From contig OW804094.1 of the NCBI GenBank assembly GCA_942159475.1, positions 132,666,755-132,730,754 of the forward strand: a stretch of 64,000 bases of DNA, in the 5' to 3' direction. A model generated the notes under the pieces. The model worked only from the letters and a program-made list of their open reading frames with translations. It was not told where the DNA came from and made no database searches. The DNA comes from Sthenelais limicola. Its lineage: Eukaryota > Annelida > Polychaeta > Phyllodocida > Sigalionidae. The position numbers were made by a program, and so were the translations under genes. Below are positions 327-58,750 of the stretch, piece by piece (the first letter of the stretch is position 1; every line of letters begins with the position of its first letter).

Positions 327-3300
327 AGGAGCCGGAGCCTAAACACAGAAAAGAGCCAAACCGGGTGGCTTTAATTGTATTCATACCCATTCTCATCATT
401 ACTGTGATCATCCTAGGAGTATTATTCTTTTTTTACCACAGAAGGTAATGTCAGATTATTTGATACTTTTTTACTTTCTCCTGTAATTATCAAGATTATA
501 TTTTATAAAACTATTTCAGAAAATCTTTCAATATCTCTACTCGCACACATCTTATTCGATGAATAGTGATCATTTTAAAGTTAATTATTTCTATGAATAC
601 ATATTCATCATGTTGTTAGTTTTTAGCGAGCATTTAATCATATTATTACTATATAGAAGATGCTTTAAAGTGAATTATTATCGCGAATACATCACCTCGC
701 GTATTCAACTATAAGTCTTGCTTGGTTTGAAGCCTGATACTATCAATAATAAGGCTCTGCCCAGGAATACTCGGTGCACTTATCAGTTGCTTCCCCTCTG
801 TCGGTCTCTCCATTCTGCTTTTATTCTCCAAGAACATCATTCATACGTCCCCAAGCATGTTGTATTGATAATCTTTATCATTTGTCACACTCGCCCCTTC
901 ACAAATAAAGGGATCCAGGTACTATGTGATATATCAGTGTTGTGCGGTTGCATCCACTTTTCTCACCTTCTGTCAGTGTATGACTGTGTTTAGTTTAAGT
1001 CAAAATCTATGTGGGGTTGCAAGTATCTGTGCTTTTTTACCTTTTCCCCAAAGCGTTAGTATCGCGTTCCGTCCGCTTGACCTAACAAAACTGACATTCG
1101 CATCGCCGACTGCTACGATGCCTCCGATTCTCTCAGCAAATTTCCCTCTAATCATCTAATGGAATGACTTGGGTTAAGGTACGTTCTACCATTATTTTTT
1201 TTTTTTTTTTTAACACTTTATTTATCCAGGTATTATAAAAGGGCTATGGCATTTGCCAACCCTGATTCATCGGGGAACAAGCATGTCGCCTGATTTACAC
1301 CCCGAGCCTGGCCATGTCAACTTACATAACAGAGTAATGGGGTTATAATATGAACACAGTATTGTGGGTGATGTTGGAATGAGATGAGATGAGATGAGGT
1401 TTATACATATGTTAGGTGATGAGTTTCGATCAAAGTAGTACCATAGTAGATAGCAATAAGTTTATGCAAGGTTATACAATTCATGTGTACAGCTCTAGCT
1501 GTTGTAGATCATTGAAAGTAAGTGTCCCTCAGCCTCCGTTTGAAGACTAAGGGGTCCTGTGTCAACCTGAGTTCAGATGACAGAGCATTCCATAGGCTAG
1601 CACCATGATAGAGAAAGGATTTCTTATACAGGTCATACTTTGGTAATTCTTGTTTTAATACTATAGCATTAAACCTTCTAGTAATTCCTTGGGGTAATTG
1701 GGTGAAAATTGTATTTTCCTGATTCACATGTATGTCTCTATGTATAAGTTTCAGTAAGTTGAAATCCATTTTTTGTTCAAAAGTAAGAATCTTTGTTTCC
1801 CGATGTAATTGCACCGTCGGGTAGAGCCTTGGGAGGCCAAGGGCAATTTTTAATGCCCTATTTTGGATTGTTTGTAGTTTATCTTTATAGTTTTTAGTAA
1901 GTGATAAGTAGCAGAAGTTTATATAGTCAAAATAGCATAAGACCATTGATTTGGTGAGAAGCAATGCGCAGCTTCTAGTTAAACATGATCTAATGAGCTG
2001 TATTGTTCTAAGTCTAACCGATGCTTGAGATACTAGGGCCTTAAAACTGGTCTCAAATTTAAGATCTTGTTGTAGTGTTATACCAAGATATTGGAATTCA
2101 GAGACCCATTCTATTTGTTGGCCATCTGTGAGAGTGATTGGCCTGTCTCTGTCATGTAATTTTAGATGAGCTTTGTTCCCAATAAGCATTGACTTGGTTT
2201 TGTTGATATTTATACTAAGCTTGTTATAGTTACCCCATTGTATAATTTCCTCACAGTCATATGTTACCGATTGGATTAGTTCTTCATATGTATTTTCAAT
2301 GTTGAGAAGGACAATGTCATCTGCATACAATTTCATGGTTCCATTTACCCCAAGGTTGATGATATCGTTTATGTATAGTATAAACATAGAAGGGCCTAGG
2401 ATCGACCCTTGTGGTACACCAGTTGTGATTGTAGCCATTTTGGAAAGTCTACCATTTATTCTTACTTGTTGGCCTCTGCCATGCAAGTAGCTCTGTAGGA
2501 GTGAAATGGTATTTTCTCCAATATTGAAAGTTTTCAATTTATTTAATAGAGGAGCATGGGGCACACAATCGAACGCCTTCCTGTAATCAAAGAATGTACA
2601 GGAAATAAATTTTTTGCTATTAAATGCTGAGAGGATTGGGCTCATAAGCGATGCAACACAAGCAGTGGTAGATTTGTTTTTTCTAAACCCGAATTGCTCA
2701 CTGGTTAGCATATTCCTGTTTTCGATATGTGTCATGAGTTTCTTATTTATGATTTTTTCTACTATCTTTCCACATATATGTGTCAGGGAGATTGGGCGTA
2801 TGTTCTCTACTAACGTATGATCACCTTTCTTTGGTAGGGGTGTTACAATTGCCATTTTCCAGGCCGTGGGAAATGTGTTTGAGTCAATAGCAATGTCTAT
2901 AATATGTTTGAAAACATTCGGGATTGTCAATAGGGCATCTTTGTATACTTTTGCGTTGATGTATTGACATCCAGAGGATTTTCTAGTGTCAATCTCTTTG
3001 ATTAATTTTACAATCTCATCTAGGTCAGGATTGACAATTGTCAGAGGAGGCTGGTCATGGATCTGGTTTTGTAAAGTATTTGGATTCTCTACATCGGGAG
3101 TGTTGTCATTAATGTCTTTACCAATTGACACAAAAAAGTTATTTATTATATCTGGAGTATCAGTAACTGATGCCATGACTTTAGTTACTGGGTTTTTGAC
3201 TTGGCTAATTGTTTTATTATTTTTTGCAGGGATTAAATCATTCACTACCCTCCAGAATTTTTTGGGGTCATTTTTGTTGTTATGCAAGCTTGCTTGTATA

Positions 3301-6300
3301 TAATCGTTCTTGGCCCTTTTAAAGGCCATATTAACATTGTTCCTCAGTAGATTTGCACTGATTTTATCATTTATATCATTGGTTCGAGCATATTTTTTCA
3401 GAAAGTAGTCTCTATCATGTTTCAATTCGATCAGATCCTGTGTAATCCAGGGGGTAGGCCTCATTTTGATGTAAAATGATTTTATTGGGCATAATTCATC
3501 TAGTATTAGCAGGATATTGCGGAATAGAAAATTCCATGCATTGTCTGGATTGTGTTCGTTTATGCAAGGTTCCCAATCCATAGCTAATAGCCTATCTCTC
3601 ATAATTTCAGGTGAGTATCTTCGATAAGATCTTCCTTTTGTTAAAGTCTTTTTGAGTTTGTCCCTACTTTTTTTGTAGACAAAATAGATGGGAAGATGGT
3701 CACTAATTCCATAATATAGAGTTCCTACAGATTTTAGGTTTTTAGAACTACCTAAAATATGATCAATTAGACTAGGGTTATCACTATATCTTGTTGGGCT
3801 TTCGATTAGCTGTTCAAGTCCATTGGTTGTAACCTTATCACGAAGATAATTAGTGTCAGTGTCCTTTAGCAACCAGTTTATGTTCATATCTCCCATTATA
3901 TATATATTTGCTTTAGTGTATTTACTTTCCATTTCTTTATATTTCTGGAAGAGGCTATCAATCGCTGCTTTTTTGTTTCCTGATGGGGCTCGATAGATGT
4001 TTAAAAGTATAATGTCTTTCATTTTGGGGTATTTTATTCTAATCGCTAAGAATTCTAGGTCAGAATCGCTCTGATTTTGCTCAGTTATCACCTCATATTC
4101 GATATTATTGTTAATATAACACAATATCCCTCCTCCCTTCTTTTTCACCTGCCTATCTAATCTTTCTATATTGTAACCTTTTAGGTTGATCACTGTGTTA
4201 TCAGTATTTGCATTTAGCCAGGTTTCAGTGCATGTAATGATTTCAAAATCTGAGTTGTCGAAGTCGGCTTGTAAAAGGTGAATTTTACTAGTAATCGATC
4301 TTACATTCATGTGTAAGAATTTTTTACCTTTTATGCTGGTTAGGTTTTTTAGACTCATTTCTTTCATAATTTTGGGTCAATAGGAAATATTCTATCGAAC
4401 AAGTCTTCTCGTGTGAGAGGATGTAACAAGTAACTTGAGGTAAATACAAAAGGGGAAGAAGATGAATGGCCTTTGCCACTTAGAGTTTTTTGTACCATAT
4501 GTATGGATACCAATACAACACTGGAACGCATATTCCCATGAGAGTGCATGAACTTAGTTTTAATTTTACAACACAGATACGAATTGATATACACTAAAGG
4601 AAAATTAAATGTAGACTTTGCAACAATATTTCTAAGATATGAATCAGTGATTGGCAGGCGCCACACATATGGGGCAATCGTGATATAGTCAAAGTAGGCA
4701 TTTGCCATTTCCATTGCTATATTGTAAGTCTCATATACAGTAAGTATGGAGATATACACAAAATATATGTTTGATGAAGTATTTTCACCAGTAATTCTAT
4801 TATACGATTCGATGAAAGGCATGTGCCACTTATATATGATAATCGTGATATAGTCAAAGTAGGCATTTGCCATTTCCATTGCTATATTGAGTATCTCATA
4901 GACAATAAGTGAAAAGAGGTATTTCACATTTGAGCATAGCCAGTTAATTATACAGAGAAGAAACAGGTTAGATGTAATCGTCCATTTTTCAATTGTTAAT
5001 GAGCGTGTTGAGATACAGCATAGACTATATAGAAGGCATGTAGACAATAGAGAGTAGGCATTTGCCTTGCTCAAGTGTGTAGCTCTAATCAATACAGTAG
5101 TCATTAGTATATGATACAGTTCCTCTCATAAAATCTGGCAATGTTACGCGCCCATTCCATTAATAATCTGTTTCCTGGGTGGAGACCATCCCAAAGGTAC
5201 CCGTAGAAATGCGTCACTTTGGACCTTGTCCTCCTGTGAACTCTGCTAGTTAGAGTTGGAAATACAATTCCCTTGTATACGTGCCATCTAAGTAGTTCAA
5301 GGTTAATCATATTAACTATCTCATTTAATTTGGTTTGTTGCGGGTGTGAGGGTAGATTATTGTAGCGGGCGATATCCATGCCACAAATTCCGGCAAAAGA
5401 AAAGACAATATCAGGAAACTGTTGTTCCGCCTCCAACCACACATTACGAATGGAGTTTAGGACATAATTTGCAGCTGCTGCAATCGCTGGTCTTCTTAAA
5501 ACAATTTTACGATCATCCCATCTTTTAACCGTCACGTCACAGATCCCACCAATAACCAATATGAAATTGGGGGACACTCTCTCATTCAATAGGGTCAATT
5601 TGATTTGCAGGTAGAGATCAATAATTCGAGCACCCGGGAATACATAAACTAATGCATTAGGCATGTTCAGGTAATTGTCTAGGTGTCTGCCTCTAGAATC
5701 AGTGAAAATGAGAAAGTCTATCTTATCTGATCGGCTAGCCATCCTCTCCACTTTCATTTTCTGAATCCACTTGTTCATAGGAGTCCTCAAACTGTTGTCC
5801 TTCTGGGTTCATGTGAGAAAGGTAGTTGAAATGACCAACTCCCAGCGCTCCTCTACCTCTACCTCTGCCAGCAAATGGGGTGCCTGGACGTCCCCCTCCC
5901 CTACCTCTAGCTATGGGCTTTTTGGCAAAACGTGTGACCAATTGGGGGTTTGGTTGGTAACTGCCTGTCCTGACTAACTCAGTGCGTATGCCCTCAAGGA
6001 TTTCTCCTAGCTTATTCTTACCAGGTAGCCTAGCTCTAGGTTTGTTTAGTTTTGGTGAGGAAAGGGACACGCCCCCTCCCCAGTACCTGTCAGTAGTACA
6101 CTCAACTAGATTATGGCCTTTTGTAGATACCAGAAACTCTGCTAGTTTGTCGTTTTGGGCAAACTTTGCTTCAAGAATTTCAGTCATTCTTGCATCCTTC
6201 ATTCCTTCCCATTGTGGGTTCGATCCTATATCCTCTCCAAGCTTTTTGCAAAATCTCGGATCTTTAGTGTCTTTTATTTGATTGGCAGCTGCCTGATTTC

Positions 6301-9300
6301 CCACAATTTTAGCTTTTTGGTGCTGGTAGGCCTGTTCAGAGTTGTGAAACTTATAGCCGTCAAAATTGAATTCACAGCTATAGAAATTGGATAGGGGAGA
6401 GAGCTCACTCTGAAACCCAATGCCCTGGGAAATTGATCTGGTTTTCGTCTCCTCTATAGACAAACCACCTGGTATATGTCCCAGCTGTTTGTAGTTGAAG
6501 GTTTGATTGTTTACAATTACCTTCCCCTTAGCAAGCCTAGCATTTACGTCTTTAGCTCGTGCATGACTAATAATGGCTCTCATATCTGCTTGGGCTTTGG
6601 CTATTTTGGGAGGCAAATCCTGGTTCAAGAAACAATGCTTGTTATTTACCGAATCTTTCAAGCTAGACTTTTTCCTATTCACTCGGTTACAGGCTGAGAT
6701 TGAGGCAAATTTAATTAGAATGTTTCTGGGTCTTTTATTATCGCCTGTAGCTTTTTTGCCAAGCCTGGATACATATTCAATGTCTGTTGGTTGGAAAACA
6801 TCATCTATTTCTGTGAACATATTACACACTAGGTTGTATGTAACCCTACTACCCCTATCGTCCTCTCCCATCTTTTCCTCTACACCAGCAAGAATCATGT
6901 TTGCGTTGCGTTGGTTTGTGTCTAAATTAATACAGTATTCCTCTAGGTATGCTGTATATTTCTCTAACTTTTCCTGTTTTTCTTCCAGCTCTAGTACTCT
7001 CTTTAGGAGATTACCGTCCTCTAGTTTTTTTACTCTAGCATTTAGTTGATCAAGATTCAGATCCTTATTTTCCAACTCGTTTAATTTACCATTAGCAGAG
7101 TCCCTAATATTCTTCATCTCATCTGCATAAGCATTAAGACTGGCTTCAAAAGTATCTTTTTCCATGATTGCCGATGTGTGATTGATAGTAATGTATGGCA
7201 AGGATTTGTGACTAGGCAGTAAACTCAGTTTACACTTCACACAGGAGTCATATATACGATCAGTTGTATCCAATCTACCTGCTAATTTTATATATCCACA
7301 TTTCTCTATAATTGTCAATCTTGGATCAATAGTTGTGGGATCATAGCTCAATGGGCGTAGAAAGATCAATATATTAGCGTTTGTGGGGAGAACCGTTCTC
7401 GTGATTCTACACCTTAGGCCTTTGCCTATGCGTGCACCTGTACCCTATATAAACACACACACCATATGAATGGCGTTTGACATTGCAGATACGCACAACA
7501 GTAATTACAGTCAAAATACAGTGATAAACAATAAACTATACATATCTGATCGGGTGAGGGTGATGTGATGGCTATTGAGAGGTATATGATGACCATTAAT
7601 ATTACTCCACTACTCTTATATTCCTATAATATTGCCAGATAGCGCTAACGATTATACCTCTGAGTACAAGCTCATACCCTCTGTACAGTTAACACTAACG
7701 ATACCTCCACACCTGGTATTTGCTATGATAAATGCCAACTATTAATTAATCCTTTCGATTGGTATGATCGAACTACTTCAATCAATGCATGAACCAATTA
7801 ACCATCTATCCTAATATATAGTGTAACAATGGGTTAACATGCATGTCTTTAACCAGCCATTTTAACAATACACTCTATCATACCTGAAGCAAAGGGATGT
7901 AAGAGACGAGGTATCCATCATCCAATATCTATTGTTGATCACTTGTTCGGCAGGTGCAGACCTTATTGTCCCGTGTTCTTGAAAGGGCGGCCAGGATATA
8001 AGCTAACGGTTGGATATAAGACGACATCAACGGAACCGATATGTCGTGCAGAATGATATCACCATCAAAGGGCTACTATTTATAAACGATGGATGGGGAA
8101 TGCCTTTTACCAACAAAACAATCGTTATGATAATGCATATGCCAAACAACTTGCTATGGAGAGACACCATGTAGATACTGTGTACAAAATAAAGTATATT
8201 AATATATTCTACATTTTTTCTTGCCTCAATCATTGATTTTACACTTTCCTCTGTTAAGAACTGTGTCCCACCAAAATCGATTCTTGAATCAGATGGGAAT
8301 CAGTTGAATCGGGTTGTTATCTGATTGGATTTGTGTCGACATGTTGACATTAAACTTGATGCAGGATATCATTGTATAGTGTTTGCATGTTACACTAAAA
8401 CCAATGTATCTGATCATCGATCGGTTGGGGCAAAATCGATCGGATAGCATCGGTTTTTGTGGCAGACACGCTAGTACATGTACTCCCATCTAAGTCTGGG
8501 ACTAGGGACCAATACCCAGTAAAGGATTATCGAAACAATCATTTGCACTTCTAAGGCACACACCATCACTTATTATCCTTCATTTACTTCTGCGTTTTGG
8601 TTTGTATTATTAAACTTTTTTTTATATCATTATTAAACATTATTTTTGTCCAAACACACCATCCCTCACTCCCACCACCACACATAAATAATGTACATGT
8701 GGGGCGATAGGAACGGGTTACAAATATCCAGTTTCTAAGAAAAAAAGGTTTGCAAAGTCTGGTGTTCCATTACCCCGGATGTCACGTATATAGATGAATT
8801 CATTAACATGTCTTATTATTCTTTTAAGCTATGTAGGTTGGTATCGAACCATGCAATTATACATGTTCTACATATTCTTCTACAACCTTTCTATACATGC
8901 TTATGAATCAAATGGTGGTAGATTTGATTTTCTGCTAGTTCCATGTGCGCACATTGTATCTAACAAACTTGGATCCGTTTGTTAGATATAAATTGCACTT
9001 CACGCAGTCCTTTACAAATCAAATGAATCACGCCCATCTGATTCTTCCACCGTAATATCCCTACCAAACTTTCCTTCCTGTGTTACAATTAATCAACCCA
9101 TCAAGGTGATCTGACGCGGAGGTTTTATCTTTAACGCAAACACAGAAGGACTTCACTCCTTCGACGGTACGCTGTACTGCAGAGTCACTCCCGAGCGGAG
9201 AACGAGGATGACCTTCTGGGGTCGGTCGCCGACGAAGATGACGACCCACCCCTCAGCCCAGACCCTGATTACGACGCCTCCCATAGACGACATGGAGGCA

Positions 9301-27400: not shown

Positions 27401-30400
27401 TTCCACAGTATCTCTTCCAACATTCTCATCCATAACGACAATACGGATTTATCCATTATTTAAAGGCCATTGTCCACTAAGCCGATTCTCATGCGATTCT
27501 CGTACGATTTAGTGGACAAGGGCCTTCTACGGTGCAAAATCGCATATATAAAATGAGAATCGACCTAGTGGACAAGGGCGAAAAGGCAACACACGGAGAG
27601 AAGAGGGAAGGACAACTTTAGTCCATAAAATTGTATTTATAAAATTTATATTTCATTTTAAAAAAATGTTTAAATACTTTTGTTACATTAAAATTATGAG
27701 GAGAAGATTCGAGTGAGACATACGTGATTTGATAAGAATGGGTAAAAAGAATATATATTTTATAAGGTAGACGTGGCAACAGACACCCAACCTGTACAAT
27801 GTTGTAGGAGGTGTTTACTGAAAAGTTTGCATATATAATTATAAAGTTTGTGAAATTATGAACAGTTGAGAGGTAAAATAAGACGTTGAGTAATGGGATA
27901 CGTGTTGGGTGGGAATGGCGGTGAGGCGAGAGGAGAGGAAGAGGAACAATGGCAGATAGGTGGTGTGTACCAGATCACTAACTCCCTCTGGTGTCAAAAT
28001 GACTCAATGGGAGAACCATTTGCCCTAACATTATGCTTATATCGCTGTCTAAGTTGAAGATCTAATTGATTTTACCACTAAAGCGAATAACTATGTTCAG
28101 CTATGGCTAAATCACTGCAGTAGCTAGAGTTTGGGTGGACGCGATGTAAGTAAAAGACTCGTCTTACCTTGACTCTTGTTATTATTAAATACTTGATTAG
28201 CCCATTGATTGAACGTGGCGATGAAATATAAAACTTTAAGGTGATTTACTGAGAAATAATACAAATGCATTATGAATGTCAGGGACAGTGCAGAGTCCAT
28301 GAAAGTGTTCTTTTCAGCGTATGTCACGGATGGTGGAAGGGGGATTGCCCCTGTGGCTACATCTGCAGAAATAGTTCTAATCTGTATGACATTGCCAACT
28401 TTATTTTCGTTATAGTCAGGGTGAAAATATGGTTCAGATATATTGCCACCACTGATGCCACCCTGATGTAATTCCAAAGGTACAATTGCTGCTTGGCTAT
28501 GTGGTCCTACTTTGTATCTCGGGAGAAGTATAGTTGTGAGGAAGACTAATACCCACAAGAAAGTGAGAAATAGGAGACATGCTTTCCTATCAATTCCGCC
28601 GTCATGTGCCAACTGTTTGTAAATAAAATACAATAAAAAAATTAAATCAAAATTATATGACGCTAACGATGAATTGTGAGTAGGACTGTTATATCAAGTT
28701 TCAATAACTTATGTTTGAACTGCTCTGCTCCAAACAACGAATACTATTTTATTATCAGCTTCTAGCTTGGTCTCCTTGTACTCGGTTAGGGTAATTCACT
28801 AAACACTTCTGTTTGTAAAAATAGTAAGTAGCCCATAACCGAATACCAGAAGAAGGGGTCTCATATGGTAAAAATAGGTTTATACCTAAAGGTATTTGAA
28901 TGTCTCTTCAAGGGGTGTTGTCATTTATCAAAATTTTAAAAATGATTACATGATATTTTAGATTTTACTTTAAGATAGAAACTGATGTTTTCCCTTAGTT
29001 GGCGTTCCCTTTTTATGATAAGGTCTATTTATTTTTGTCTACAATCTAAGACAGGTGTAATAAAACAACAATAGAATGATAACATATAGAAGTATAATTA
29101 GTATATACTTATGGCAACATACTTATATTGACAATATGAATACTGGTAGGCCTATTTATTTATTATATTGTATACACATTTGAGAGACGAATGTACGTAT
29201 ACCACTAAGTGATATACGCAACCTGCCACCTGAACCACTTTTGGTAAAAGTTGCTTTAAAATGGTCCCTTTTATATCATCAAAGACTTTTATAAACTATA
29301 TAATTATATATGTCTCTTTCAATATCATCGATGTACAGAGGGAATTATATTAAATACCTTGACAAAAAGAAACACCATTCCTGAGGAAGACACCCCACCG
29401 CTGTAGAGTGCAAGGATAGTGGCTGTTTTAGCACCAGCCAGATTAGCCACCTGTAGAGAAAAACAATATGTACATGTACTGTTTAATTAATATCTATCGA
29501 TATCTAAGAGTTTTATCTAGAAAGGGTGCAGAATTACGTCCTGCATGTTAGCATATTATTATATATGCACAATCCATTTGAGAGGTGCGATAAATGGGGT
29601 GCAATAAAAATATTTTTATCATTATGTGTACGATAAAAATTCGAATTGGGTTATCTTTTAACTTTTAGATAATTTATGACGATTATATAGAAACCAAAAG
29701 CAAAGGTTTATATATCAATATTTGTCTATGCTAGGGGCTTATAATAATAAATAGTGAATAGAACTCGGTACTAGTAATTGAATATTTATTGGAATAACAA
29801 TTACTAGCACCTCGTTCCATTCTCTCTATTTTAATAGAAAAAGATTGCAGACGCAAGATATACTATTTGATTGATTTGAATCATTAAATCGCCTGTGGCT
29901 AACACAGGGGGGGGTTTCATGGATAATTTATTTCCCCATTCCCCTCAATTACCATGAGGAGAATGGGGGATTAAAGTAAATCTGAAATGTGATGAATCAA
30001 TATGTAGTGTTTAAATATATGCATGTCCCATATGTGTTCTATATGGATACATATATATATATATGGACTGACGCTAGATGTCGCCACCTCCCGGCCATGT
30101 ACCAGTGACTCTGCCTGCAGATCGCCAGTATCGTTCGAGCCGTCAGACCATACACATCTCCAGTTGTTTTTTGGGTTGTGATTTTGGTAAAATTTGGCAA
30201 AATGCCTGAGTGTGCTGGTTGCCAACGTACTCACAAAAGGCCTTGTGGAAAATCTGTCTGTTATTATGTACAAACAGCAGTCAAATATTGCAAGGATAAT
30301 GGCTTGGACGCTGCTGATTATCTTGACCATTTGGAGGACATAGCTGATCATGATGTCGAGAAGGCAGATGCCGGTGCTGAGTTGTCTATGAAAGACTTTA

Positions 30401-33400
30401 TGAAGGCTCAGGAGCAACAATTTTTGATGCAACAGGCTACGATGGATAAAATGGTCAAATCCCTGGGTGCTATAGCCATTACTGTGTCTGGAAAATCGCC
30501 GGGTGGTCCTAACACTCAATCTGGTTTTGGCGGGAAGCTGCCATTGTTTGGTGGTGGCCCCAACCCCTATTCACAATCACGGGTCGCCGCCTCTGATCTC
30601 CTAACTGCGGAGTACACTGACGCCCTCAGCCTTCTCTCCACGGCTCTTGATCCCGCGCAGAAGGCCCGTCAGTTAGGTAATTATCTAAGGCCCGAGTTTT
30701 ATGTACAAAATATCGATAAAGGGACTAATGTTAAACAGATGGACTATACGAAATTGGACAAATCAGACCTATGGTACGGCCAAACTAGGGTCTTGAAGGA
30801 AATGATCAAGCGCGGGGAGGACATTATTGGATATGTAAATCACATGGTATATGTTGCTAAGCATGCCCATCTCAAAACATATAAAGATTCGGCCCTCGTG
30901 AAATATGATCGTGAAGTTGTTAATAGAATTCTTGACGGTGAACTAGAGGCTTTCGTTGCGGCTGACCACGAGTCTCAGAGTGTGGCTTTACATCCCGGCG
31001 CTATGGCCACGCCCCCTTCTCCGTCTGCTACGGACGAGGAGAAGAAGAAAGGCAAGAAGGCGGCGAAGACAGCTAAGAAATCTGCTTCTGTTGTTCCCTC
31101 GGATTTTCCCGAGGACATATGCTACTACTACAATTTCAAAGATTGCAATGGCAAATGCTCCAGATCCCATATCTGTCGTTTTTGCAAGGGCCAGCACAAA
31201 GCGCCAACTTGTTCTTCTCGTCCCAAGACTGACTGACTACGCTTGTGCCATAGTGACCCGGATGTGACCTCTCACCGGAAGTCTGGGTTCCAAAATGGCG
31301 GCTTGGTCTCTTGTTTACCGGAGCTTGGGCTTGGCTGCATTACGAAATTTGCTCCTATGGTTTGGAACGACCTTTCTCCTTCATCTAGTTTGATACAAAG
31401 AGTTCATAACAACGATACTGACCTTCTTCATAAGTTTGATGGTTGTGCATTTGGGGATAAACGTGTGATTGACGTTAGTTGCTTGCGGCACAAAGAGTCC
31501 GCCAGTTCACCTTGTCACTCGCCCTCACCCGATGTTGTTGTTGATATCGTTGATGATGGATGTGTCAGTGTCGACCCTTTCTCGCCTGAAACTAGTCCGG
31601 ACTCTACAGTACCTTCGCCTCTCTTTGCTACCTTGGGATGTGATATGGATTCTCCTAATAGTCGCATCCAGGACTTTCACTATGTTAATGGGTGTCGATC
31701 TCAGATGAAGTGGGGTAAATGGGTCACCGAGCTCTCATATGAATCTGATACTAAATTGAAACAGTTCCTTCTTGACGGGATCAAGAATGGTTTTATGGTG
31801 GTTGATGACGTGGACAAGGTGCCTCCATACAAATGTTCGAACTATTGTACCGCTCTTCAACCGGATGCTTATAAATTTATTTGTGAACTACTCACTCAGG
31901 AAATTTGTGAGGGAAAATACATCAAGGCTCCTTACAGCTCTCAGTGCACTCATGCCATCGGTGCAGTCCCTAAGGGAGATAATGCTTATCGTCCTATTAC
32001 TGACTGTCGGAGGCCCCTGGGCTATTCAGTCAATAACTTCCAGGATGAGACATGTGAGAAGTTCTCGTTTACTGGTATGGACACGGTGACTGAAATGCTT
32101 CGTCGTGGTGATTTTCTAGCAACGATTGATATAACTGCGGCTTATAGATCCATTACTGTGCATCCGTCTTGTTGGCCCTTGATGGGTATTCAGTGGAAGT
32201 TCCCTGATGACTCTTCTGAGCTTCCCTACTGGGATACGAGGCTTTGTTTCGGGGTAAAATGCGCCCCTTACATTTTTACCGAGATAAGTCGCTTTGTTGT
32301 CAGATGTATGAATAGGAGGGGATTTCATCGCGTTAACGCCTATCTCGATGATTATCTGGTGGTCGGTGATACCTTTGAGTCCTGCCAGCATGCTCAGGCG
32401 GTTTTGGTAGATCTTCTCGGCTCTTTAGGCTTCTATGTGTTGTGGAAGAAGTGCCAATCCCCTGCGACCCGTCTTCAATATTTGGGCATTATCATTGACA
32501 CTGAGATGATGGTATTGTCCTTGCCTCATGGTAAATTGGAGAAACTGCATTACAACATCGCCTTCTTCGATGGGAAGAATTCTGCCACTCTACACCAAAT
32601 TCAGAGGTTGTGTGGTTTATTATGCCATTGTGCCTTAATTGTCAGAGGTGGGAGAACATTCTCGCAAAGAGTCATTGCATTGTTGAAAGGCCAAAAAGGC
32701 AATAATGCTCGAATTGTGTTGTCTGATGAATTCAAAGAGGATCTCTTATGGTGGCAACGCTTCTCAAAATTCTTCAATGGCTCTGCAGTGATAGTCAGAT
32801 ATGACCCTTCATCGGCTGTGTGCATTTACTCTGACGCTTGTGCTAATGGGTATGGGGCAGTGTGTAATGGTGACTGGTGCGCTGGTTACTTTAATTCAGC
32901 CCTCCTTCCCAATGGAGCTCACAAAATCTACCCCTCGCATATGCATTGGTGTAATGTGGATATCCCCCTCTTGCTTGACCGTGATGATAATGTGAACCTA
33001 TGGGAGCTAGTTGCTTTGTGGCAGGCTCTCATGCGGTTTTTGCCTTCACATGAGAACTCGCAGGTTATTTGCTACACAGACAATAGTCAAGTGGTCTTCA
33101 TGGTCAACAAAGGGAAGAGTTCAAACTCGTCTTGTATGTCGATACTGCGAGATATTTTCTGGGAGTGTGTTTGTTATAACGTGTATATATCTGCAAGACA
33201 CATCCCTGGCTGCTATAATATAGTTCCTGACATGTTATCGCGTGTTGGTGCTTCTAACTCACTGGATATGATTTCTGATTATGATTGTCTATGTTGCAGT
33301 GAACGTCTCTGCCCTTGATGATGAAGTTGCCTCAACTTTGGGTCATGCTTGGGCTACTAACACCTTGAAGACTCGCAACGTCCAGTGGAGGAAGTTTATC

Positions 33401-36400
33401 CAATTTTGTGACACTATTGGTGCGGTCCCTATTCCAGCTGACCCGCGTACGGTTATTAGATTCCTGGTTTGGCTAGCCAGGCATATGAAGTTCTCGTCGA
33501 TCAATAATTACCTCTCAGCTGTCTCCAACTTGCAGCGCTTCTACGGGTATGAGCCCAATTATCGGGAGATTTTTGTCGTGAAAATGATTTTGTCAGGACT
33601 GCAACATCAGTTAGGTTCTCCACAACCTGTAAAAATGATAGTTACTCCAGCTGATCTTCGCTTGATGTTTAAGAGGATGGTCAAGTCAGATTACAATGCT
33701 GCATGCTGGGCTGCTATCATCCTAAGTTTCAGATCATTACTTAGGAAGTCAAATTTGGTGCCTGATGTTAATTCGACCCACACTATTCGTCGTTCTGATG
33801 TTACTTGGTCTGACTCGGGCCTTGTTCTTCACATTTCTTCAACGAAGACTATTCAATCAATGGAAAGATCTCTTCAGATCCCCATTTCAGAGGTGTCGGA
33901 TCCGTGCATGTGCGTAGTGTCAATGCTACGTTTACATTTTCTGCAATACCCTGCTGCTGCATCGGAGCCATTGTTCATGAATCCTGATGATCCTTCTACC
34001 GCTTTGTCTTATCGTCAAATATTGAAGTTCTTCAAGTCATGTGTCGAATCTATTGGGTTGGATCCCAACCTGGCTGGCATACATTCGCTTAGACGTAGCG
34101 GAGCATCGTATCTTCATTCTCTGGGTATCCCTCTAGAGGATATACGATTGATGGGAGACTGGCAGAGCCTGTCGGTGTTGACTTACCTTGTCTCGACCTT
34201 CGACAGGAAATGTGCGGTTGAAGCTAAAGTAGTGTGTGACCTCCAGAATTATGCTTAGTTTGCTTTCCTCTCCTGTGTCAAGTGTTTTCCCTCCTGGGAT
34301 GGAGTTGTGACCAGGGCCTGTTCTGGCGTGAGGTTAAGTTCTAGTTAATATAAAAAGTATAGTTCATTGGAGTTTTTGGGCGTCTACAAGGTCGCCGGCT
34401 ACTTGCCGCAACAACAAACACTCGTTCAATTATGTGTTGGGGAATATGTGTTCTATATGGATACATATATATATATATGGACTGACGCTAGATGTCGCCA
34501 CCTCCCGGCCATGTACCAGTGACTCTGCCTGCAGATCGCCAGTATCGTTCGAGCCGTCAGACCATACACATCTCCAGTTGTTTTTTGTTTTTTTGTTTTT
34601 TTTTATTTTTTTATTTTTTATGTTTTTTTTTTTTAAATAAAGGCGTCTACAAGGTCGCCGGCTACTTGCCGCAACAACAAACACTCGTTCAATTATGTGT
34701 TGGGGAATATATAGTCCCCTATAGACAAGTGGTTACAGTGTTAGACTTCCAAACTTTACATTGTGGAGCCGAGTCTCAGAGCAGACAGCCTTTTTACTTT
34801 TGTCTCATTTTTGAGTCATTTTATTTTTTAATTTCAGTAATATCTTCACATCTGGGGCTTGGTTTTCTTTTAAACTCACTCATTTAGTTATTGATGTTAT
34901 TCTCTTCGATTGGTGAAAGAATTAGAGAGGCTAAGATCGAATTAAGCGAGAAAAGTAAGTGAAACGGGTTCGGGGTACTATGGTTCTCCGGATCAGAGGC
35001 ATGGGCGGCAGTACCAAGCCTGTTTATTTTCGTCAAAAATGCTTTTCACACGGGGTCACGACTCGTCTAGAGTAGTAGACTGAGACACATTAGGCAACTA
35101 AATGGCTCTGTAGGCCTATGATTGGTAAATCGTTGACAAGGCACTTTGAAACACGGTTCTGTTATATTGGCAGCAACAATAAAACATATTATTACAAAAT
35201 ATACTTGTCAGTTCTGTATACTACTATTATTATACCGTACTCGTTGTTGTTTTTGACAATAATAAAAATCAGCTTCACTATACCTACTTTTCAGTCGGTT
35301 TAAACAGGGAACACAGCTATTTGTTTTGCCTAATTTTAAATAATGACAAAATAATGAATGTTTATCATTTCGTAATGTAACCCTTAATATGATAAATAAA
35401 CTAAATAATACATTGATTATATAACACTTTAATGCAGAAGTGATTAAATTTCTTTTTTGGACGAAAGATCATTGTGTGAGTATCATTTTTATGATGATGT
35501 GGTGTCATTCTGCAGTGATCAGATGCGAATGAAGGCTATTGACCGGATACATGCTGGAAGATCTGATTCCCCATATGTCAGATATATGTTACCTGTTTTT
35601 TCGTTGCTTGAAGCTTGATAAATAAAAATTAGCGTTATCATTGTTGCACGGATGATCTAACTGGTAAACTGGTAAACGGGCGGTGATGGGCATTAAAGTT
35701 ATTATTTCCTGATGAGGGAGAAATCCAATTTAATGATGTTTCAAGATTGAGTCTTTTGCAAATGGTCTGCCCTTCAAGTTACAGAATATAATAGTGAAGT
35801 AGTATCAGTAACCTCTCCTCCCCCACCATCCCGGCCACCATCTCATGTAGTATCAGTAACCTCTTTTCCCCCACCACCCCTGCCACCATCTCATGTAGTA
35901 TCAGTAATAAACTTCTCCTCCCCCACCATCCCGGCCACCATCTCATGTAGTATCAGTAACCTCTTTTCCCCCACCACCCCTGCCACCATCTCATGTAGTA
36001 TCAGTAATTAACTTCTCCCCCACCATCCCTGCCACCATCTCATGTAGTGTCAGTAACCTCTCCTCCCCCACCATCCCTGCCACCATCTCATGTAGTATCA
36101 GTAATTAACCTCTCCTCCCCCACCATCCCTGCCACCATCTCATGTAGTATCAGTAATTAACCTCTCCTCCCCCACCATCCCTGCCACCATCTCATGTAGT
36201 ATCATTAACCTCTTTTCCCCCACCACCCCTGCCACCATCTCATGTAGTATCAGTAATAAACTTCTCCTCCCCCACTATCCCTGCCACCATCTCATGCAGT
36301 ATCAGTAATCTCTCCTCCCCCACTACCCCTGCCACCATCTCATGTAGTATCAGTAATTAACCTCTCCTCCCCCACCATCCCTGCCACCATCTCATGTAGT

Positions 36401-39400
36401 ATCAGTAATTAACCTCTCCTCCCCCACCATCCCTGCCACCATCTCATGTAGTATCAGTAACCTCTCCTCCCCCACCATCCCTGCCACCATCTCATGTAGT
36501 ATCAGTAATTAACCAGGAGGTGACACAGTGTTCGCCAGAATGCTACTCACCGACTGGCTACAACACCCCCATGTATCAACAAAAGCATAAAGAAGTACTG
36601 TACTGTACCAGACCTCAGTTAAAAGTGAGGAGGTAGGCAAACTACCAAGAAACTAGACCATCATAGCACTGGCTTGCCCAACCTATTATTGTTTATTGTA
36701 TTTGTCCTGTTTATGTTATTATTACTGCCATAATAGTTTATCATATTAATGTAGTCGCAGCATCAATCTATATATCAACTACTACTGTATAAATTTAATA
36801 ACGTAACTCCATTTTTTCCAAAGGGGGCCCTCAGGAAGATCTATGGTTTCATAGAGGAGACCCACCCCCTTTTTCGGTGTTGAAATTTGTTATATTATTG
36901 AAAATGTACACTTCCGGAAATAAAAACCTATACATACAAATACATACATACAACCTCTCCTCCCCCACCATCCCTGCCACCATCTCATGCAGTATCAGTA
37001 ACCTTTCCTCCCCCACCACCCTTGCCACAGTTCCATGTAGTATCAGTAATTAACCTCTCCTCCCCCACCATCCCTGCCACCATCTCATGCAGTATCAATA
37101 ACCTCTCCTCCCCCACCGCCCCTGCCACCATCTCATGTAGTATCAGTAATTAACCTCTCCTCCCCCACTATCCCTGCCACCATCTCATGTAGTATCAATA
37201 ACCTCTCCTCCCCCACCGCCCCTGCCACCATCTCATGTAGTATCAATAACCCCTCCTCCCCCACTATCCCTGCCACCATCTCATGTAGTGTCAGTATCCT
37301 CTCCTCCCCCACCACCCCTGCCACCATCTCATGCAGTATCAGTAGCCTCCCCCCCCCCCCCACCAACACCTCTAGCTGCCACCATCTCATGTAGTGTCAG
37401 TAACCTCTCCTCCCCTCCACCCCTGCCACCATCTCATGTAGCATCAGTAACCTACCCCCTCCCCCGCCACCACCCACCACCACCACCTCTAGCTGCCACC
37501 ATCTCATGTAGTGTCAGTAACCTCTCCTCCCCTCCACCCCTGCCACCATCCCATGTAGCATCAGTAACCTATCCGCCCCCCCCCCCCCCGCCACCACCCA
37601 CCACCACCACCTCTAGCTGCCACCATCTCATGTAGTGTCAGTAACCTCTCCTCCCCCTCCACCCCTGCCACCATCTCATGTAGTATCAGTAACCCCCCCC
37701 CCTCCCTCCAGTTTATGGAAAACACCCAAGAAATGTGACCGCCCTTCATGTCCCACTGCGCTTAAAGGGCCCTTTTCACCTAGGCTTGAGACAGAGTATG
37801 TCTATGGGGACTTCGGGAACAATCGAAGGAACAACCAACTTTGTACAATAACAAAAGATACTTACATGGTAATTGGTCACCATTATGGTGAATGCAACGA
37901 GAGCAATCATCGATGCAGCAGGGTAAATCATCACGGACGTTTCTGTTATAAGTAAAAGCAAAATACTTTATATATGATTTGGCTTGCCAAATTATGTCAG
38001 GAACACTGAATTATGTAATGGAAAGAACTGAGATTCAAAAATGGCATTATCAATGCTAACTGTATGATTAATTATTCATATCTTTATCTAACACACTATT
38101 CCTGCACCCTTATAATTTTGGGGTGTGTGCATACATGTCATCTTTTTCCCCAATGATAGGATTCCTTCTTTATTTAATTTAATCCTAAAAACCAGGTTGG
38201 TTGATAAATCAATATCTCTATTCAGATACTAAAACTTTATTGCAGTAAACTAAAAAAAAAGAGCCATACCTGGAGTCACGAATGCCAGCATGAGGTAGGC
38301 AGGAATGGCAATCACTCTGTTAAGGAACAAAAACAAAGAAAGGTATTTTACAATGCACATCTTTCTCTGTACTCTGTGGCACAGTAGACATTGGTATTAA
38401 TGCTACTAGGAAAACGGCCATCTTCCACAATCGGTTCCCTTATCCACTCTCGACAAAGCAACGAGTTCAATATTATTCTACACGAATTGGTGAACAGGAA
38501 AGTGTTTCATCAATGAAATGAGAGTTTACTCTGGAGTTAAAAGTCCTGCTGTGCCCTCCTTTGGCACGTTATGCTATACACGACCGGTCAGGTTCCTACA
38601 AAGAAATCTTGATTGGTAGATCACCAGACTTCTAATACTCTGACCTATCACATTTCTAGTGTTGTGCTGGGAAACGTTTTTCAAAAAAGGGGCGAAGAAC
38701 TTTTACCCTGTCAAACATCGTTGTCTTCGACTCAACAATGGCGTGAGCTAGAATTTAACTTTGCGGATACATTATTTGAATAAAGGTGAAAGACATACCC
38801 ACAAAAGGTATTTACCAAGAAATTTGAGCATATTTATCTAATCGTATCCCGAAAAAGTCAATTTACTTAAGAGTCTCAAAAGAAGATCCTTTACATTTTT
38901 TTATCTACTTCATACAGAATGTTTCTCTTGGAAGTGAGAGGCCCACATACGTGTTGTTGAAGTGAATATTTAATTAAAGCTGCTTTCCCTACCAAATCAA
39001 ATCCTTAACTATTTTTCTCATTTTTCCCACTGATCCTTAACGCTGTAGAATGTAAGAGTTGAATGCTGAAGATCAAGAAAAACTGGTATTCCCCGTGTTT
39101 CGTGAATTAGTGGATTTTTAGTGGATTAGATTTTTTTAGTTTCTGTTCTACGGCTGCTATTTGGAGTGAAAAGCATTGACATGTTTGACATGATTGTGCC
39201 ATATTTTGGTTTACACCGGATTGAATAATTTGGAAGATGATTTACTTTTAGAAGAGACCCAAATTCTTTAAGAGGCCACAAAATTATAAAGACTTTTTTT
39301 AACTGAAATTAGCTGGCAATGAAACTCTAACACCATGTTGCCCATTGGAACAAAATCTTGAAAATGATACTCACGAGACAAAGATTCTCGTGGCCAACAA

Positions 39401-49850: not shown

Positions 49851-51560
49851 CCGGCCCCTAAGCCAATAGCTGTACAATTCGATATCGAGGACGATCTAAA
49901 TAAAAAGGAGGTATTAGCCGAGAAAGAGAAAATAAATGAAAATAAGAACTCAGGCTTGGTATACGTGAGTAATAGGATATTATGTGCAGCTTTAAAGGCA
50001 AATGTGGACTTTTTTTTACAAAGCTACTGAATAAGTGTCTTAGAACTCAGAGGCTCCCATTAGAATGGAAGACTTCAGCTATAAAATTGCTCCCCAAGCA
50101 GGGTAATATCAGAACTATAGACAACATAAGGGCCATTACTATTGTACCAACTATGAGTAAGATCATCGAAAAAATTATTTATAGAAGGTTGTACGATTTC
50201 TTAGAAGAGAGTGAATTTTTCACTAAATGCCAATTCGGATTTAGAAAAAATCGCCCAACTCTGGGTGCAATTCACGAGAATTTAGAACCTATTTATGGGA
50301 ATTTAGAGCTAGGAAAGAAATGTCTGTCTATATATTTCGATATAAGAAAAGCTTTTAACACTGTATCTCACTGCATTTTCATGAGGAAACTGAAACTGAT
50401 CTGAATCGGCCCTACTTTATGGGTGGGGCTCCCGAAAATGTCCATTTTGCAAAAATCACCCATTTTAATTCCATAATTCATTCGGATTTCATCCCACACT
50501 ACTGATATTTCAGTATTTTGTACCTTCCCAAGTGTATAATGAGGGCATATTGAGAAATATATATAAAAATTCCTTTTTATGCAAAATAATCATATTTTTA
50601 TGTTAGAAAATGTCCCTAAATGCATGTCCCTGGTGTAAATTATTTTTTGTTTCAATGTAAAGTTATATAAAACTTATTAATTTGTTATTTGTCTTTAATT
50701 CTTCATAAAACACATGTAAAAACCTCCTTCTGAATTTATTTTTTAATTTAATTTTGTTTCATTTATCTTATTATTTTCTGTCTTTTCATTCACATCTCTC
50801 CAAATAGCTTATGAAGATTATTGATAAAATGATAAAATCCACAATAATGGTTCTACCTAGAAAATATTTTGCTTTCGGTCTCTTGTTATTGATATAGTCC
50901 CATATCACATTAAACTTTGAATTTTTATTTTTTTTCCAATTTTGACCATACTCATGGTTCCATAAAGTTGAGACATAGAAATTCCGAGTTTGACAGCCTT
51001 TTCTTCTCACAGTGATAAAGTGCATTTTTATTCAAATATTCATGAAAATACAGTTGTGATTATGCATATTTTGTACCACTGGCTATGACCAGGAGAAGGC
51101 TCAGATAAATTGAAATAAAATAAAAAATTTGACCTTATTTTTTTGAAAGTGGACATTTTCGGGTGCCCCACCCTTATGTGGGATCTTGGGAAATTTTCTT
51201 GAACAACGTTACCAATTTCTGAAACAAGATGATTTATGTTCCTCAAGTCAAGCTGTAAATAATGGTGTCCCCCAGGGAAGTATTTTAGGCCGCTTAATGT
51301 TCCTAATCTTCTGTAACGACCTAGGTGATATAGATTTCGGTGGGAAATTGATATTATTTGCTGATGACGCTGTGATAACAGTATAATGACTGGTGTAAAC
51401 TAAATGGTCTGGTATTAAATAAAAAGAAAACAAAATATCAGATGTTTAGTAATGGTCGATCTGTTACCAATGTGGTTTTGAAATGTGAAGACAATGTACT
51501 GAAGGATGACTACAATTTCTTTAGATTTTGTGTCTCTTATAAATTATAAAAGATTGTAGT
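49850..51560 (+). pseudogene. Decayed LINE reverse transcriptase, split by an insertion
   Basis: Frame 49982-50404 encodes RT motifs WKTSAIKLLPKQG, NIRAITIVPTMSKIIEKII, FGFRKNRPTLGA and FDIRKAFNTVSH. The RT resumes at 51186-51386 with NNGVPQGSILG and LFADDAVI. About 780 bp of unrelated DNA separates the halves. After 51386 the sequence decays with a frameshift. It is a non-LTR element distinct from the intact one at 1195-7369. Confidence 0.8.
50411..51182. mobile_element. TIR element inserted in the LINE RT
   Basis: The ends are imperfect inverted repeats of about 44 bp: left end GGGTGGGGCTCCCGAAAATG, right end inverse complement GGGTGGGGCACCCGAAAATG. The interior is AT-rich with no transposase, so it is non-autonomous. 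Its limits match exactly where the RT frame breaks and resumes. No clear target duplication. Confidence 0.75.
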
Positions 51561-55810: not shown

Positions 55811-58750
55811 ATGGATGGATTTCGGGAGCCGCCTCTAGTAATAGACCTAGGCTCTGGAACTGTGAAAGCAGGTTTTGCAGGAGAGGAAGAACCATGCTCA
55901 GTGTTCCCATCCATTATTGGCTATCCTTTGAGAGAGGACGATACAAGCAAGGGGACACACGTAGGAAGAGATGCGAAGTATAGAAGAAATATGCTGACTC
56001 TCAAAGTAAGAACACACATCTTCCTTTATGTGAATGATCGTGATTGATTGACAAAGATTTTAGAGTCACTGTTGTTGGTGGCTAATCCACAGTCTCTAGG
56101 GGGACCAGGTTGCCATACCAATGCACGGGCAGTCCCATCTATTTAGAGCCACACTGTGACACGCTGGTACAGAAAGAAAAAGGAAGAAAAAAAGGGTGAC
56201 TGACGCTAGAGGAGGGTTAAACACTGATATTAGAAAGCATAGATATAAGAATTAAAGCATCCGTTGAAAATAGCGCTGGATGGATGAGGTACGCAGATCA
56301 GATTCAAATATTAAAGATGTGCATATTAATGGTCTTTCAGGAACCAATAAAACATGAAGTTATGAAAGACTGGAAGGAAGTAGAGATGATACTGGACCAC
56401 TTATTCCATACAGAACTACGGGTGGATCCAGCACGGTACCAGATTCTCATGACTGAGGCTCCCCTCAGTCCAAAAATCAATAGGGAAACTATGGCAGAGG
56501 CAAGAGCTTGAATTACTGTATTTGACCCATGCAGGGCGTCAGTAAATGTACACTCAGCAGCTCCACACAATATTTAATCAATTCTGACAATTTCGCTGAA
56601 AATCCGTTTGCTTATGTTGAAGTGATTTTTTTGTCTCATTTTATCTTAAATTTGGGTTGCTCAAGATAATAAGTGCAGGCAACCCCTACATTTTCTGGCG
56701 CCCTCACCCAATTGATTGAAACTCTGATCTAATAAGTATCTCAGGTTTCTAGTATTATGATAATACATTTCCTAATTTTCCGTTTCAGATTTTGTTTGAG
56801 AAGTACACTACACCGGGTATGCACTTTGCATTACAAGGAGTTTTATCAATGTACGAGGCAGACAAAACAACAGGTGTAGTTTTAGACTCTGGTCATGGTA
56901 TAACACAAATAATACCAGTGTATGAAGGTTTTGCTTTAGAACATTCCATATACAGGACAGAGTTTGCTGGGGCGCATTTGACTGATTTCTTAATTCAAAT
57001 GTTGGGAGACAGAGGACATGATTTCACTACTTCTGCAGACAGATATATCATAGAAGACGCAAAGGAAAAAGTAAGTGCATAATATATCAAGGTTTTAAAA
57101 TGTGAACCTGGTAAAGGGAAGTGTTTGGGCAACAAAAATTATACCTCCTAGACGGACTGTAAGCACCTCTCTTGGATGAATTTTTTTGCCTTAATATTTT
57201 CTGGAAATATCATTCAAACCACTGAAAAAAAATATAAAAGCAAATTACACAAAAGACAAATTTCACGAAAATTGCAAAGAGTTTAGATATAATTGCATTA
57301 TTCGACATTATATAGGATACCATCCTGGTTCATGTGAATTAATTAATCCCCGTTTTATATAATGTAAGAATTATAGTTACCAATACAAGGGCGTCTTAAA
57401 ATGTATAATCGGCAGCTCGATCTAAACATTTAACAAATTCTTCGAAATTTCAAAATATTATGATGTCACACATCACTCTCAGTACCCGCTTGTGCTAAAT
57501 AGATCTTTTCACCTAAGCTTTCTCCTGTGAGCGACTATAAGTTAGACATAAATGGAGGTAAAAAATTGGGACTTGGGTGTTGTTCTTATGGATCCATAAA
57601 GTTTGTTGTCCTGAAAGTGACCATAAACCCGTTTAGTGACCCTTTAAACTTGAGTTATCTGAGAGGATTTATAAAGGTGAATTGTACACTTTTTGTCGCC
57701 CTGATCCAGATATCTAATTGATATTGAGCCGATAGTACAGTTGTTGTGTTGTGGGGAATGTCTGTGTATCAATAATTAGCATAATATAACTGCGCTGAAA
57801 GTATACTTTCTACTCCTTTAGTATTGCTATGTGGCTGCCAATTATGAGACGGAATTGGCATCTCTTAATCATCCGGGTGATCCTCAATCAGAGAACATAG
57901 CTTCAATTTCAATTGAGCATGGCGATAGTCTAACTTTAGAAAAGGAGCGATTTGTTTGTCCAGAGGCATTGTTCGCTCCCGAGTTGAGGGGTAAGTCATT
58001 AATATTCCGTGAGGTGATGATTATGTATCATGCCAAAAACAAAACTTTAAAATGTATTTTGAAATTACCACAATATTTTGTTGTTCTCGTGATAATAGAA
58101 CTTTGTGAAAGGAATCAACAATTGGATCATTTTGTTGAATTTTGCATTGCTGTTAGCAATCGATATTTATTGCTGCGAGGTTGCAATTCCTCCCTTTGTC
58201 CGTTCACATATCCACGCAAAACAATTATATTCAAGATAATATTTCAGAAGCATAGAGAAGCAAATCCTAATTATGTAATGCAACATATCTGCCCCTTTCA
58301 GTTACCAATTAAGACCACATTTCTGCGGATCACTGCATTGACACTTATAGTTTTCCCCCAAGTATAAAATTTATGGTTTGTGAAAAGTACAATGGGTTAT
58401 AAATGTATGCTCTATAATTTTCAGGCATGGAGTGTAAAGGTATCCACCAAGCACTTCACGATGCCATATCCAGGTGTGAGATGGACATCCGTGGAGCCCT
58501 CTATCCCAACATAGTTCTTTCAGGTGGCAGCACCATGTTTCCTGGTTTGCCAGCTCGTCTTGAAAGGGAAATGGTCGCTTTAAATCCATCTGCCAAGAGG
58601 ATACGTGTCCACGCCCCTTCACGTCGAAATCATTCTGTGTGGAATGGGGGATCGATCCTCGCAAGTCTAGGTACATTCCAGAAAATGCTCATTACAAAGG
58701 AAGAGTATGAAGAAACTGGAATATCTGTGGTTCATGCAAAATCCTTTTAA
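55811..58750 (+). CDS. Divergent actin / actin-related protein, complete (five exons)
   Basis: Exons 55811-56005, 56341-56499, 56789-57070, 57822-57990 and 58425-58750 join in phase to 376 residues, the length of conventional actin. Clear actin blocks: VIDLGSGTVKAGFAG (phosphate loop 1), PSIIGYP, LTLKEPIKHE, ELRVDP...TEAPL, DSGHGITQ (phosphate loop 2), VYEGFALEHSI, ERFVCPEALF, NIVLSGGSTMFPG, SVWNGGSILASL, and a KSF end. Divergent points: the DNase-I loop is about four residues shorter, phosphate loop 2 has His and Gln where actin has D157 and H161, and LAGRDLTDYL reads FAGAHLTDFL. It is not a processed copy. The second intron uses a GC donor. A 5' UTR acceptor directly precedes 55801. AATAAA lies at 58803-58808. 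It does not fit any numbered ARP I can name. Confidence 0.92.

Follow-up and report, generated by a model that had tools for sequence, protein, structure and literature searches.

The 64,000-nucleotide stretch of the genome of the annelid Sthenelais limicola analysed here (contig OW804094.1, positions 132,666,755 to 132,730,754; hereafter the window) contains a long interspersed nuclear element (LINE) whose first open reading frame (ORF1) joins a NADAR domain to a LINE-1-type ORF1 protein (ORF1p). We tentatively propose, with slightly less than even confidence, a joint reading of this protein: that an RNA-packaging protein of LINE-1 type, built of coiled coil, RRM and C-terminal domain (CTD), here bears a C-terminal NADAR of the YbiA class, and that this NADAR is an active N-glycosidase carried on the retrotransposon ribonucleoprotein (RNP), shielding the RNP from host ADP-ribosyltransferases.

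A NADAR domain fused to a LINE-1-type ORF1 protein

The ORF1 frame, on the minus strand like all other features of the element, is uninterrupted over 5735-7444; its first ATG lies at 7165, giving an ORF1 of 476 amino acids (5735..7165). A first, sequence-only reading of the window had placed a NADAR domain at 5975-6418. Our analysis confirms it inside this single open frame, with slightly wider limits (residues 243-398, about 5972-6439; profile, structure and alignment evidence), and all the motifs quoted in that reading are present in the translation. The hidden Markov model search that it had called for gave matches far above chance and above the curated cut-offs: Pfam PF08719 matched ORF1 with E=5.7e-30 (105 bits, cut-off 35) and NCBIfam TIGR02464 with E=6.2e-31 (108 bits, cut-off 74). 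Among solved NADARs, ORF1 retrieved 8bau (E=4.9e-11) and YbiA (2b3w, E=2.4e-8) by sequence, and the computed fold of the domain is YbiA-like. Contamination or a chance match was ruled out, given the continuous frame, an E-value of about 1e-30 and relatives with the same domain order.

The region preceding the NADAR domain had been described as an ordinary coiled-coil ORF1 part. A coiled-coil helix is indeed found there in the AlphaFold2 model (residues 38-86, 6908..7054), but the region is more than a coiled coil, as it is followed by an RRM (residues about 88-184, 6614..6904) and a CTD (residues about 186-240, 6446..6610), both of the LINE-1 ORF1p type. The protein thus has the coiled coil, then RRM, then CTD of a type II (LINE-1-like) ORF1p, and the L1 ORF1p trimer matches the ORF1 model from residue 41. 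Human LINE-1 ORF1p (2yko, 2ykp, 2ldy, 2w7a) shows the same order, whereas the window protein adds the NADAR domain and an RG-rich tail after the CTD; to our knowledge, LINE-1 ORF1p has no NADAR. The RG-rich tail, which had also been noted earlier, is borne out by the translation (5738..5947); it is modelled at low confidence, with a predicted local distance difference test score (pLDDT) below 50 from residue 407, and is probably disordered. Taken together, profile, structure and alignment support the fusion of a NADAR domain to a genuine ORF1p.

The NADAR active site

The catalytic positions of published NADARs were mapped onto ORF1 by alignment and motif spacing, with a presumed offset of two between the 8bau numbering and that of the paper. 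All six positions are present in the window protein: E277 (codon 6335..6337), which aligns to the catalytic Glu conserved among NADARs; K284 (6314..6316), aligned, given that offset, with K50 of the P. nicotianae NADAR (K95 of E. coli C7); W319 (6209..6211); E355 (6101..6103), taken as the YbiA-class Glu of the last strand; and D359 and W362, which bound a D-x-x-W motif (6080..6091). Loss of catalytic residues would have spoken against the domain assignment; instead, E277, K284, D359 and W362 align with reference NADARs. In the E. coli C7 NADAR, K95 is essential and E88 is the named catalytic Glu (PMC11543638), and in the nematode protein SNA-3, mutation of Glu, Asp and Trp residues, chosen mainly as counterparts of critical YbiA residues, impairs the protein (PMC9303266).

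The YbiA class of NADARs is marked by a Glu in the last strand (PMC11125620). E355 aligns with the Glu of YbiA 'LVEHT', and the presence of this residue, equated with the class-marking Glu by its position, suggests that the ORF1 NADAR belongs to the YbiA class. In the DarT1-associated (BC4488) class, a catalytic Asp precedes this Glu position by two residues (D171 and E173 in E. coli C7; PMC11543638); going by residue numbers, its counterpart in the window protein would be L353 rather than an Asp. YbiA (2b3w) and the P. nicotianae NADAR (8bau) have the fold and the catalytic positions in common with the window protein, and neither is fused to an ORF1p.

Conservation was counted in 22 aligned proteins, namely the window protein and its relatives P0001-P0020 and P0022 (described below; the truncated P0021 and P0023, a fusion to a cap methyltransferase, were left out). 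E277 and W319 are kept in all 22, K284 and W362 in 21 each, E355 in 19 and D359 in 17, while the median alignment column retains the window residue in only 6 of 22.

Relatives and origin of the fusion

Two protein searches yielded 23 distinct relatives, all listed with PF08719: the first returned 13 proteins out of 5487 candidates, and the second, which scored only the 8000 candidates sharing most words, returned 12, two of them repeats. The queries were the window ORF1 or its alignment, so the set is biased towards proteins of this kind. Sixteen of the 23 align with the window ORF1 through the region preceding the NADAR domain, at an identity there of only 15-26%, and proteins from other data sets show the same domain order as the window ORF1. 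Five further relatives carry the NADAR domain on other scaffolds: beside zinc-knuckle-like cysteines recognised by eye (P0010); between an SGNH domain above the Pfam cut-off and a zinc-knuckle-like part (P0011); after RNase H and PHD domains and before an SGNH domain, with PHD and SGNH below the Pfam cut-off (P0012); between a zinc-knuckle-like part and an SGNH domain below the cut-off (P0022); and with an SGNH-like part seen by eye only (P0013). Judged from their architecture, these 21 relatives appear to be retroelement proteins. The pairing of NADAR and SGNH-like parts in one protein (P0011, P0012, P0013 and P0022) echoes the window, where the NADAR ORF stands beside a possible SGNH ORF. 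In P0023, which does not resemble a LINE protein, NADAR is joined to an mRNA cap guanine-N7 methyltransferase domain, which hints at RNA 5'-end chemistry for some NADARs.

In a tree of the NADAR domain with 32 rows, from which the truncated P0021 was omitted, the 17 type II proteins do not group together as a single clade. Five changes are needed, and 0% of 200 bootstrap trees required a single one. Good support was obtained for only eight of the 29 inner branches, and these are compatible with a single origin. Co-inheritance of NADAR and ORF1 core gave a rank correlation of 0.29 over the 17 proteins, with 11 of 5000 permutations as high; when five members of one tight clade were removed (12 proteins), the correlation fell to 0.11, reached in 1372 of 5000 permutations, and the evidence for co-inheritance was therefore gone. 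The window NADAR is nearest to that of P0009 (43%), yet its ORF1 core is least like the P0009 core (15%), a mismatch that fits domain swapping and also saturation. Scans of viral and genome contigs for relatives with their DNA context found none, except for two viral contigs (L010 and L011) that match in the NADAR domain only.

Proposed function and its alternatives

In the mechanism that we propose, the NADAR domain would be held on the retrotransposon RNP through ORF1p and would strip ADP-ribose from element RNA or cDNA, or from bound proteins, so that the RNP would be protected from host ADP-ribosyltransferases. Fusion, folds, catalytic positions and open frames were computed here; activity, substrate and any counter-defence benefit we infer. 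The sequence-only reading had suggested either the reversal of an ADP-ribosylation-based defence or the processing of ADP-ribosylated nucleic acid, and the conserved active site would be compatible with either. The base known to be targeted by NADARs in nucleic acids is guanine, whose ADP-ribosylation in DNA they reverse; a YbiA-class NADAR of Chondromyces crocatus did so in vitro and protected cells from the toxin with which it is paired (PMC11543638, PMC11125620). Invertebrate positive-strand RNA viruses carry NADAR inside their polyproteins, which their describers read as aimed at host ADP-ribosylation (PMC9503650), and NADAR-bearing RNA-virus polyproteins are among the matches of our ORF1 model in a set of viral models. 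NADAR is also found on the other scaffolds described above (P0010, P0011, P0012, P0013 and P0022), which is what a recurrently useful module would lead one to expect.

Several points weigh against this proposal. We know of no host ADP-ribosyltransferase that acts on the element. Individual catalytic positions are not kept in some relatives: the Lys in P0006, the Trp of D-x-x-W in P0009, the Asp in P0009, P0010, P0011, P0014 and P0019, and the last-strand Glu in P0003, P0012 and P0013. Moreover, ORF1 differs from the P. nicotianae NADAR at two residues that contact ADP-ribose there, R79 (pyrophosphate) and D86 (ribose), and a third, Y84 (adenine), falls in a gap. In vitro, E88Q inactivated the E. 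coli C7 NADAR while E88A had only a minor effect (PMC11543638), and having the Glu therefore does not prove activity. NADARs encoded outside DarT operons were inefficient against DarT1 in vivo (PMC11125620), and YbiA also acts on intermediates of the riboflavin pathway (PMC9303266).

One alternative is that an N-glycosidase of metabolic repair was captured and plays no specific part in transposition, being retained only as a piece of a needed ORF1. The riboflavin-pathway activity of YbiA speaks for it, and TIGR02464, the equivalog model for riboflavin-intermediate N-glycosidases, is also the best named match. Such a passenger would be expected to decay, whereas the catalytic positions are mostly preserved in proteins whose ORF1 core is only 15-26% identical to that of the window, and we consider this explanation very unlikely. 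Another possibility is that the domain is a non-catalytic ADP-ribose reader that, in the course of target-primed reverse transcription, brings the RNP to ADP-ribosylated chromatin or DNA nicks. PARPs act at the nicks that such integration makes, and at least one of the six positions is not kept in P0003, P0006, P0009-P0014 and P0019. However, all six are present in the window protein, and the catalytic Glu, where drift would be expected in a pure binder, is, like W319, invariant in the aligned set; a reader function thus seems quite improbable to us.

A further possibility is that NADAR serves in 5'-end processing of the element RNA, for example on an NAD-type or ADP-ribose cap or on an RNA-repair product, and that the benefit lies in translation or template use, not in counter-defence. 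SNA-3, the nematode NADAR protein impaired by the mutations mentioned above, works with the trans-splicing small nuclear RNP and CBC-ARS2 (PMC9303266), the Ectocarpus paper likewise proposes the processing of RNA intermediates (PMC12477816), and P0023 couples NADAR to a cap methyltransferase. Against this stand the unLINE-like character of P0023 and the absence of any NADAR action on an RNA cap from the excerpts of the cited literature, and we regard a 5'-end role as unlikely. Finally, NADARs are common in phages and bacteria (we found matches in 510 phage and 55 plasmid records), and a bacterial NADAR gene might have been joined to a LINE by misassembly or contamination. This is extremely improbable: the fusion lies in a single continuous frame, the same domain order recurs in other data sets, the best identity to a phage or plasmid NADAR is 38% among the matches listed (30 of 510 and 20 of 55), and none of the 565 reaches 60%.

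Organization of the element and the rest of the window

The element is a non-long-terminal-repeat (non-LTR) retrotransposon that runs from at least 7165 down to 1195 on the minus strand, 1195..7165 being its minimum extent from the ORF1 start to the poly(A) tail; its 5' leader probably extends to higher coordinates. ORF2 (952 amino acids, 1509..4367) encodes a reverse transcriptase (2073..2834; PF00078, E=2.5e-35) and a probable endonuclease (3696..4307). The endonuclease match stays below the cut-off of both models, narrowly for PF03372 (22.2 bits against 24.5, E=1.3e-4) and by far for the NCBIfam exonuclease III model NF008733 (E=2.8e-5), and it sits at the N-terminus, the place expected of an apurinic-type endonuclease. 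The best PDB match of ORF2 is 8c8j_A, 'RNA-directed DNA polymerase' (E=1.6e-12), which we take to be human L1 ORF2p, and the length of ORF2 and the ending of its C-terminus recall, as we see it, the CR1/L2/Jockey group. The element closes with AATAAA (1217-1222) and a tail of 17 A (1195-1211; together 1195..1222). The earlier description of the LINE as intact holds for ORF1, ORF2, the AATAAA and the poly(A) tail; it does not extend to the 5' end or to a target-site duplication. Candidates for the latter were all A-rich or very short, and none was convincing. The 64-kb window holds no second copy of the LINE beyond an internal duplication in its third ORF, and a search of Rfam at the gathering threshold and a tRNA scan gave no match.

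Between ORF1 and ORF2 lie two further open frames, and the LINE may hold four ORFs. The second ORF (212 amino acids, 5104..5742) begins at an ATG that overlaps the ORF1 stop (ATGGCTAG, 5742-5735), its frame having earlier ATGs (from 5778); its own stop overlaps the first ATG of the third ORF (TAATG, 5106-5102), and the stop of the third overlaps the first ATG of ORF2 (ATGA, 4367-4364). Stop/start overlaps are known from coupled translation in some LINEs. The codon score of the second ORF is 0.153 in its own frame versus 0.023 to 0.086 in the other five. By eye, it shows DSRG, PGA, GGICD and DGLHP in the order of SGNH hydrolases, with a Cys at the Asn position, a weak assignment; profile and sequence searches found no significant match, and the model (pLDDT 40) holds no fold information.

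The third ORF (246 amino acids, 4364..5104), of unsettled coding status, contains an in-frame 165-bp duplication whose units differ at 11, 15 and 11 sites in the three codon positions. With four synonymous and 23 non-synonymous codons, it gives no indication of purifying selection, and its codon score is unremarkable. None of 20000 random sequences had an open frame this long, a result that is overstated, as duplicated sequence is not random. It has no Pfam match, and a membrane protein was ruled out, as no 19-residue stretch exceeds 1.6.

Elsewhere in the window, 30109-34258 (plus strand) is occupied by a second, different retroelement with open frames: a gag-like ORF recognised by eye and without a Pfam match, a reverse transcriptase ORF (PF00078, E=3e-11) and a tyrosine-recombinase-like ORF (PF00589, E=1e-5, narrowly missing the cut-off), an arrangement that is presumably DIRS/Ngaro-like. 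A fragment of another reverse transcriptase, LINE-like by eye, lies at 49976-50404 (plus strand; PF00078, E=5e-10). C-rich tandem arrays with units of about 50 bp span 35809-37710, and GC skew is strongly negative in 36001-38000. An open frame at 57822-58367 (plus strand) has an actin-like stretch by eye (ERFVCPEALF) and no Pfam match.

Comparison with known systems and implications

The fusion of NADAR to a LINE ORF1 is already known in kind, from one sentence stating that YbiA-family NADARs appear to be present in the ORF1s of several families of Tx1 LINEs in the Pacific oyster Crassostrea gigas (PMC12477816, Genome Biol 2025). The oyster ORF1s are like that of the window in this respect; in the excerpts of that report they come without architectural, catalytic or structural analysis, whereas the window ORF1 has a LINE-1-type scaffold in a layout that may hold four ORFs. 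Our additions are this scaffold, the analysis of the active site and the arrangement of the ORFs, unless the oyster elements share them. The same paper reports NADAR in brown-algal Gypsy elements, which resemble the window in having NADAR in a retroelement but are LTR retrotransposons with the domain N-terminal in Pol (PMC12477816). Among the papers listed in literature searches, no further report of a LINE ORF1 NADAR turned up, and the main text of a study of ORF1 types contains no word beginning with 'ADP' (PMC4120745).

The SGNH-esterase ORF1ps of ZfL2-1, CR1 and RTEX likewise give a LINE an enzyme within its ORF1 region, and the window has a possible SGNH-like ORF after ORF1; the enzyme-like domain of the window ORF1, in contrast, is a NADAR, and it stands beside an RRM. 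In 2013 the esterase ORF1ps were called 'unique among ORF1ps in harboring an enzymatic function', none of those in RepBase having an RRM (PMC3905857).

It is possible, although we hold it as doubtful, that a LINE RNP with its own nucleic-acid de-ADP-ribosylase represents counter-defence, a retrotransposon counterpart of viral macrodomains, and that retroelement ORF1 scaffolds of different kinds have taken up this module more than once, in some cases next to an SGNH enzyme. RNA packaging is the role usually assigned to ORF1ps. If the conserved NADAR active site on this LINE-1-type ORF1p functions, it would be the second enzyme added to ORF1ps, after the SGNH esterase, and NADAR on an ORF1p would suggest ADP-ribosylation as a means by which retrotransposition is controlled.

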